A stretch of DNA of 64,000 nucleotides, taken from the NCBI RefSeq assembly GCF_000024985.1, contig NC_013524.1, positions 682,001-746,000 of the forward strand, in the 5' to 3' direction. Positions 23,309 through 40,553 of the stretch are shown piece after piece (the stretch's first letter is position 1; every line of letters starts with the position of its first letter). Under the pieces are notes generated by a model. The model saw only the letters and a list, made by a program, of their open reading frames with translations. It had not been told where the DNA came from and did no database searches. Source of the DNA: Sphaerobacter thermophilus DSM 20745 (GTDB lineage Bacteria; Chloroflexota; Chloroflexia; Thermomicrobiales; Thermomicrobiaceae). Position numbers and translations under genes: made by a program.

Positions 23309-24382
23309 CTAGACAGCACGAGCCGGGACCGCCATCTGCCAGCAGAGGCTGCCTTGAGGCAGTTCGACCAGCCGCACACGCTCCGGCTCCGGGCGCTCCG
23401 GGCCCGGCAGGCGAAAGCCGGCCACCTCGATGCTCTCAGCGCTGGCAATGAACGTCAGCCGCGTCGCGCCCGGCGCGACCGCGGGGTTGAACGCCGTCCG
23501 CATCCGCTGCGTCGCCCACCACAGGGTCCGACCGGCCTCTCCCTCGTAACGCTGCAGCAGATAACGATGACCGAGATCGTCGACCAACTGGTCGAAGCCG
23601 GGCCAGCGCGGCAGCACGTGATGGAGATCCCCCGCTCCCGGGCGCCGACGGGCGCGGATCCGCGTCCGCACCGTGATCAGCGTTCCGCCCTTGCCAAAAG
23701 CAACCTCGTCGACGGTGACGCGTAGCCCGTGCTCCATCCGGATCACCGCTCGCGGGAACGTGACCTGCACCACCGGCCCGATCTGGAGCGAGTGGAGCGG
23801 CGGCCGCGCCTGCTCCATCAGGCGGTGCAGCGCCATCGCCGCGCCCTGCGACGCGCGCTCCTCGCGGAGCCAGGCCAGCGCGTCCACGTCCTCCGGCAAC
23901 GCGAGCAGATCGGCGAGCAGCGGGCTGGCGCCGCGCGCCCTGGCGTCAGCGGGCTCCGGTGTTCCACGAAGCCGGCGCACGCGCCGGAGCGTCGCACGCA
24001 GGGCGTCAGGCGCGGCCAGTCCATGCTCCGGAATCGCGTCGAAGAGATCGGACTCCTCGGGCAGGTCGACGAGCTGGCCCAGCAACGCTCGCTCGCCCGC
24101 CTTGGGCATGTCGAAGCCGTACCATCGCGCCCGGCGCACGCCAACGACCCGACCTCTCAGCTCTTCGAGCGCGGCGTGCAGCGCAATCCGCGCGCACAGC
24201 GGGCCACGATTCGCCGCCAGCCAGGCGACGGGATCCTGCCCCGCGGGAAGCTGAATCAGGTCGGCGAGGAGCTGGCGCTCCTCGACCGACCCCGGCTCCA
24301 GCAGGTGGGTGCCCGGCGGCAGGTGCCGCAACGTTTCCAGCCGCTGGAGGTCTCGCCGAATGTCGTCGTCGGGATCAAACAT
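23309..24382 (-). CDS. Hypothetical protein, 357 residues
   Basis: A cytoplasmic protein of unknown family. The N-terminal 190 residues are helical with two similar stretches (LLADLIQLP...DPVAWLAANRG and LLADLLALPEDVDALAWLREE), an internal duplication. The C-terminal half is beta-rich (VVQVTFPRAVIRM, GLRVTVDEVAFGKGGTLITVRTRI broken over two strands) and ends in LTFIASAESIEVAGFRLPG. There is no signal peptide. The ATG follows AAGGAG at good spacing. It is the last of three unknown minus-strand genes; a promoter block like that before 25693 lies upstream. Confidence 0.7.
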   Translation of the reverse strand: MFDPDDDIRRDLQRLETLRHLPPGTHLLEPGSVEERQLLADLIQLPAGQDPVAWLAANRGPLCARIALHAALEELRGRVVGVRRARWYGFDMPKAGERALLGQLVDLPEESDLFDAIPEHGLAAPDALRATLRRVRRLRGTPEPADARARGASPLLADLLALPEDVDALAWLREERASQGAAMALHRLMEQARPPLHSLQIGPVVQVTFPRAVIRMEHGLRVTVDEVAFGKGGTLITVRTRIRARRRPGAGDLHHVLPRWPGFDQLVDDLGHRYLLQRYEGEAGRTLWWATQRMRTAFNPAVAPGATRLTFIASAESIEVAGFRLPGPERPEPERVRLVELPQGSLCWQMAVPARAV

Positions 24383-39747: not shown

Positions 39748-40314
39748 TCAGGACGACCCGTCGGTGCCGTCGAAGTGGTAGAAGCCGTGAGGCTCGATTC
39801 CCAGTGCCCGGTTCAACCGCGCCCGGTAGTTCTCCCAAGCACAGATCGCCGAGATTTCAACGATCTCGGGCGCGTCGAAGTGCTCCTGTAACTGGCAGAA
39901 GAGGTCGTCGTCGATGGTGGGAGGTGTCGCCGTCACTGCCTCGGCGAACGCGAGCGCGACCTGCTCCGCCGCGGTCAGGTCGGGGCACCCTCGCCAGTTG
40001 CCCGCGCGCACAGCCCCGATGACGTCCGCCGGGACGCCGGCCTTGCTGCCACCGGCAGCGTGCAGTTCCTGTCACAACGGGCAGCCGACGATGGCTGCGA
40101 CACGGAGGTTGAGCAACGCGTTGAGGCGAGGGCTGGTGCGCATGCCACGGCTCAACTCCCGGCTCATGGCCGCAGCGGCGAGCGCGACGTTCGGCGCGTG
40201 GGCTGTCTGCCGGAGCGAGTTGAGCACGGTGCCATAGATGCGTACCTGAGCATCAGCCAGGGCACGTAATGAGGACGGAATCTCAGCATCGGGCACGTCG
40301 GGAAGTCGAGCCAT
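39748..40314 (-). CDS. AhpD-like/carboxymuconolactone decarboxylase family protein with in-frame TGA, probable selenoprotein
   Basis: One continuous frame of 188 codons, ATG 40314 after AAAGGAGGG. It is interrupted only by TGA at 40074-40072 (codon 81). Upstream sequence NLRVAAIVGCPL and downstream QELHAAGGSKAGV, AAEQVALAFAEAV and DAPEIVEISAICAWENYRARL fit a full-length CMD/AhpD-like domain. The motif becomes C78-P-L-(TGA81)-Q-E-L-H85, that is CxxCxxxH of AhpD with the second, peroxidatic cysteine replaced. A hairpin with a GGU loop starts 12 nt after the TGA. Reading TGA as selenocysteine gives an intact peroxidase-type protein. The alternative is a pseudogene with a nonsense change exactly at the catalytic Cys. 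Confidence 0.8.
40045..40059 (-). promoter_or_regulatory. Candidate bacterial SECIS hairpin
   Basis: GCTGCC-GGT-GGCAGC forms a perfect 6-bp stem with a GGU loop. The loop begins 18 nt after the TGA codon, and its first bases are guanosines. Bacterial SECIS elements lie inside the coding region directly behind UGA, have a short upper stem, and need a G at the start of the apical loop for SelB. Its bases also encode AAGGS of the protein. Confidence 0.6.
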
Positions 40315-40553
40315 ACATCTCCCTCCTTTGAACAACACCTGTCGAAACCCTCACGAACTCGGCTATCGTAGCACACGGTCACCCACGAACCCTTGGCCCG
40401 CAGTGGACAATGATGCGAAGATACGGCATCCAACCTCCCAGCTCCGATCGCTCCGGCCAAGGCCGCTCGCGGGCTCCGTGGCCGGGGGAACGGGGAGGGA
40501 AGCTATCGACGCACAGCAGCGCAGATCCGACGCGCAGTGAAAGGAGATCGTCG

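Follow-up and report, generated by a model that had tools for sequence, protein, structure and literature searches.

Is a gene whose frame is cut by a TGA at the centre of its active site broken, or is the codon read as selenocysteine (Sec)? The question is raised by an AhpD-like gene on the reverse strand of Sphaerobacter thermophilus DSM 20745, in which the TGA takes the place of the second Cys of a CxxC motif. We analysed this locus within the window (the whole 64,000-nucleotide stretch of DNA), its genome and relatives across the phylum. Comparison of the sequences indicates that UGA codon 81 almost certainly specifies Sec. The fuller explanation, in which decoding of Sec81 gives an AhpD-like redox protein, is highly likely, and we regard a peroxide or disulfide reductase as the probable, although less secure, identity of that protein.

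The interrupted frame and its genome

Re-reading the sequence reproduced exactly the coordinates, frame, TGA and CPL-TGA-QELH motif reported by an earlier, sequence-only reading of this DNA (Table 1). The AhpD-like frame has this single interruption and, read through, carries the motif C78-P-L-U81-Q-E-L-H85; the read-through protein passes the gathering score of the Pfam CMD family (PF02627; 28.2 bits, cut-off 23). The anticipated splitting of the gene is seen in the open reading frame list, where translation table 11 divides the frame into pieces of 88 and 87 aa.

Table 1 Features of the AhpD-like locus and two further TGA-containing genes of the same genome
Feature	Position	Strand	Details
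AhpD/CMD-family gene, predicted selenoprotein	39748..40314	-	188 aa, ATG start; Pfam CMD match and relatives
Terminal stop TGA of the AhpD-like gene	39748-39750	-	Codon 189
In-frame UGA, predicted Sec81	40072..40074	-	Second position of CxxU; same-column TGA in relatives
Cys78, first Cys of CxxU; putative resolving Cys	40081..40083	-	Invariant in all aligned relatives
His85	40060..40062	-	Counterpart of AhpD His137 / PA0269 His55 (PMC3141380)
Probable ribosome-binding site, AGGAGG	40322..40327	-	Sequence
SECIS-like hairpin, GCUGCC-GGU-GGCAGC	40045..40059	-	Apical loop 40051-40053, nt 19 after UGA
L111, AhpC/TSA family, same genome	G000:C2:1241511-1241897		TGA in FSSGUVNE
L112, AhpC/TSA family, same genome	G000:C2:28083-28448		TGA in LLUPHC

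Within the window, 127 TGAs are flanked on each side by 60 or more open codons, and two of these survive a filter on codon bias and a hairpin, the AhpD-like TGA being the sole survivor in a recognised family. The other, at 24252-24254 on the forward strand, lies between long open frames of high GC3 and is followed at nt 19 by a stem of 8 bp (loop TGGC); its peptide looks non-coding, and its passage through the filter is probably due to chance.

The genome, a very complete assembly whose two contigs total 3,993,764 bases, was searched for selA, selB, selC and selD, as the earlier reading had proposed, and all four are present. The tRNA-Sec (selC) scores 74.1 bits against a gathering score of 47 and has the anticodon TCA, and the SelB, SelA and SelD matches score 358.7, 527.2 and 380.3 bits, respectively, so that the set by which bacterial selenoproteins are judged occurs in one genome. 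The selD gene itself contains an in-frame TGA, within its active-site motif CAGU (LASCAGUASKMG), and each of two formate dehydrogenase alpha (FdhA) genes has a TGA within ARIUHSS. Two peroxiredoxin-like genes of the AhpC/TSA family (PF00578) carry single in-frame TGAs at redox-motif positions, which makes them further selenoprotein candidates (Table 1). At least six candidate Sec genes, including the AhpD-like gene, are thus found in the genome, and together with the machinery these other TGA genes indicate that the organism uses Sec. A third PF00578 match with a TGA lies at C1:1995403-1995714. Among the genomes with the AhpD-like TGA, 21 of 22 have selB, compared with 116 of 158 overall (p = 0.007), an association that lends weak support because selB is present in most of the class.

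Conservation of the UGA and of the hairpin behind it

Loci were collected by searching the class (158 genomes) and the phylum (400 genomes); they were translated and aligned, and a set of 53 rows was used for the tree. At the column of the UGA, 44 of these 53 related genes across the phylum have TGA and the other 9 a Cys codon, whereas further stops within the gene are rare. Both comparisons suggested by the sequence-only reading therefore favoured it: relatives without the TGA have Cys, and sister genomes keep the same TGA, nearly always with no others. The window gene belongs to a supported Sec-only clade of five members, the rest being its congener and the genes of genomes G117, G114 and G100, and the Sec and Cys labels require four changes on the tree, compared with 8.5 when labels are shuffled. 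In the comparison with the congener, dN/dS values are 0.029/0.417 on the upstream side of the TGA and 0.032/0.217 on the downstream side, and five other pairs show the same purifying pattern on both sides.

A nonsense mutation in a dead gene would also give two fragments on a plain reading of the frame, and decay is seen close by in a remnant in genome G116 and an extra TGA in genome G114, but the same TGA in 44 relatives from many families of the phylum, downstream purifying selection equal to that upstream, and the lack of any other lesion in the window gene or in that of the congener leave a pseudogene with a negligible probability.

The extra in-frame TGA in G114 (Thermalbibacter; L023, G114:C1:529515-530060) is at codon 107, in a column that is a conserved Trp in close relatives, and purifying selection persists beyond it (dN 0.099, dS 0.43); it may be a recent nonsense mutation, an assembly variant or a second recoding event. 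The G116 locus (L042, G116:C96:59554-59736) aligns in the C-terminal part only, has a TGA at another Trp column and looks like a copy in decay, selB and tRNA-Sec being still present in that genome. Together, these two cases raise the possibility that parts of one genus are losing the gene.

Twelve nucleotides separate the UGA from the stem of the SECIS-like hairpin, whose small apical loop opens at nt 19 with a G; spacing, loop position and leading G are all as first described for GCTGCC-GGT-GGCAGC. The hairpins of the FdhA genes in the same genome have the loop GGUCU(G) at nt 19, in equal register, and in Escherichia coli fdhF the GGTCT starts 18 nt after the TGA, again at nt 19 (this stretch, confirmed as fdhF, is present in 5,368 E. 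coli genomes).

Comparative evidence supports this hairpin. Across 42 Sec genes, 92.9% of the aligned stem positions are paired, and three of the six pairs show changes on both sides (GC to UA or AU, UA to CG, and CG to AU or UA). For these 42 sequences, the covariation score is higher than in any of 500 shuffles and at any slid register, which bears out the SECIS-like interpretation, as does a set of 20 sequences. At the fixed register, five or six pairs form in 40 of 43 Sec genes, compared with one to four of six in the nine Cys genes. Because the encoded peptide is conserved too (HAAGGS/NAAVGS), hairpin conservation is partly non-independent of selection on the protein. Some stem changes are non-synonymous, such as those giving Gly for Ser in L036 and Cys for Gly in L032, suggesting that the RNA, and not the protein alone, is selected. 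The Ala codon in the stem of the window gene is GCT, a rare choice (5.9% of Ala usage), and of 20,000 synonymous recodings with the codon usage of the window, about 0.8% have an equally good stem at that position. RNAalifold on 54-nt windows recovers the hairpin with the best energy of the scan, a ranking that adds little because adjacent windows hold the same hairpin.

The support is comparative and not thermodynamic. An isolated 45-nt RNA is no more stable than its shuffles (z = -0.11), and its minimum free energy fold is a competing structure; single-sequence folding was accordingly rejected as proof of a SECIS element, and the comparative evidence was used. Sec also occurs in the distant members L039, L043 and L045, where the hairpins differ in sequence or register and Cys and Sec may have switched independently. 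L043 and L045, which are Sec members of a Cys-like clade, form two pairs only at the shared register, and L043 has an alternative stem, CCGCCUU-GUU-AAGGCGG, with its loop at nt 21.

The hairpin also bears on whether the UGA is instead read as Trp or a near-cognate residue, or whether a restart yields two functional pieces, for which an in-frame GTG start 60 bases 3′ of the TGA could serve. TGA genes have the hairpin at its register and Cys genes lack it, every relative without the TGA has Cys at the column, the genome encodes a complete Sec pathway, and a cut would halve the CxxC active site inside a compact domain. We consider these readings very improbable. Sec decoding, by contrast, is supported overall, every attempt at refutation that was run having come out in its favour: as judged from the aligned genes, the frame is one conserved protein, its UGA stands at a Cys column, and the hairpin is conserved and co-varying.

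Fold, relay residues and proposed chemistry

The AlphaFold2 model, built from a 25-row alignment, has a pLDDT of 94.3 and a pTM of 0.90 and shows the all-helical fold of AhpD-like proteins. Its top match in VIA-align is Deinococcus radiodurans AhpD (6k40; Z 23.0, 2.4 Å, 181 residues), with the debrominase Bmp8 at Z 21.0 and Mycobacterium tuberculosis AhpD (1gu9) at Z 11.4.

In AhpD, the proton relay comprises Glu118, Cys130, His132, Cys133 and His137 (PMC3141380). The window protein has Ala66, Cys78, Leu80, Sec81 and His85 at these positions, so that Cys78, Sec81 and His85 are retained, whereas Glu is replaced by Ala66 and His132/Tyr50 by Leu80. With the Glu and Tyr relay residues missing, peroxidase activity is not simply transferable from AhpD. 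The His85 column is itself Asn in most Sec relatives. A full Glu/Tyr/His set is found in 2 of 43 Sec rows compared with 6 of 9 Cys rows, a correlation that is confounded by phylogeny because the rows that keep the relay fall in one clade, both relay-complete Sec genes sitting in a clade that includes Cys members.

We propose the following course. A ribosome would meet the hairpin just 3′ of the UGA, where SelB and Sec-tRNA(Sec) would decode codon 81 as selenocysteine; the TGA at codon 189 is assumed to be an ordinary stop. Sec81, as a nucleophile of low pKa, could then attack a peroxide or a disulfide, its ‘peroxidatic’ role being assigned by analogy with the AhpD literature. The resulting selenenic acid would be resolved by Cys78, giving a selenenylsulfide bond that a cellular dithiol would reduce to recycle the enzyme. 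Most of the relay that activates Cys in AhpD may have been lost because a selenolate is already ionised. The selenol pKa is 5.2, compared with 8.3 for Cys (PMC13188914), and a selenolate formed without need of the relay is the likeliest reading. More tentatively, in the Sec-dominated AhpD-like lineage of Chloroflexota, selenocysteine may have replaced the relay that Cys-containing AhpD requires. If so, exchanging Sec for Cys should abolish activity unless the relay residues are restored, and the family would be a natural test of the reasons for Sec retention.

The selenoprotein could have another job, such as Bmp8-like reductive dehalogenation, or general thiol–disulfide exchange in which it serves a peroxiredoxin as adaptor. 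Bmp8 is among the close folds, AhpD-family roles are diverse, the two relay residues are missing and the genome has peroxiredoxin-family genes as possible partners; on the other side, the closest folds and sequence matches are annotated as AhpD or peroxidase-related, and nothing points specifically to halogenated substrates. Gene neighbourhood is also unconserved, with no operon partner recurring beyond close relatives and clusters recurring only among those. The ubiquitous neighbour clusters were discarded as functional clues, as they were the two halves of the AhpD-like gene or antisense frames. Another job is a possibility to be kept in mind, and peroxide or disulfide reduction is our preferred assignment for the Sec81 protein.

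Despite its broken appearance, the gene very probably works and has a wide distribution in Chloroflexota; with it, the selenoproteome of this genome gains a CxxU redox enzyme. The gene is of value for annotation and for the question of the relay: a Sec lineage that has lost relay residues is a concrete case in which to ask what an enzyme gains from selenium.

Relation to known AhpD-like proteins and selenoproteins

AhpD-like selenoproteins with a CxxU motif have been known since 2005. Sargasso Sea data contained 27 such sequences (PMC1088965), the GOS data contained 299 of AhpD-like 1 and 70 of AhpD-like 2 (PMC2398784), and a 2026 review also lists them (PMC13188914). The families of Zhang and Gladyshev, AhpD-like 1 (COG2128) and AhpD-like 2/CMD-like (pfam02627), share with the window gene a CxxU in an AhpD/CMD domain and a downstream SECIS, and were defined mostly from marine metagenome sequences. 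In the papers that we searched for Sphaerobacter or Chloroflexi, the window gene does not appear, and among the papers covered by our search we found no biochemical study of an AhpD with selenocysteine and peroxidase activity.

Among characterized proteins, AhpD of M. tuberculosis and PA0269 of Pseudomonas aeruginosa have in common with the window protein the all-helical AhpD fold and the CxxC-xxx-H arrangement; the window protein differs in having Sec for the second Cys, and Ala66 and Leu80 at the Glu and Tyr/His positions. Bmp8 (PDB 6ohi) has the same fold over 181 residues at 18% identity. The curated model for peroxidase-related enzymes, TIGR01926, gives 38.1 bits, below its cut-off of 81.8.

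The nearest named family is NF053654 GroundWater_YciW, ‘YciW-related (seleno)protein’ (NCBIfam 20.0), which is of equal length, has CxxU and places its hairpin in equal register. Its cut-off of 310 bits is passed by sibling clades of the phylum (L026 with 315, L038 with 334), whereas the scores are 109.9 for the window protein and 112–152 for its nearest relatives. A further difference is the residue that follows the motif, which is His in the window protein (CxxUxxxH) and Asn in the members above the cut-off. Because the NCBIfam cut-offs miss this branch, its genes can be expected to be annotated as fragments or pseudogenes. The protein is a member of the AhpD/CMD superfamily and of the CxxU kind of selenoprotein, and lies outside NF053654 and TIGR01926 by their cut-offs. 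The kind is already known, and what is added here is a Sec clade that scores well under the cut-off of the NCBIfam model.
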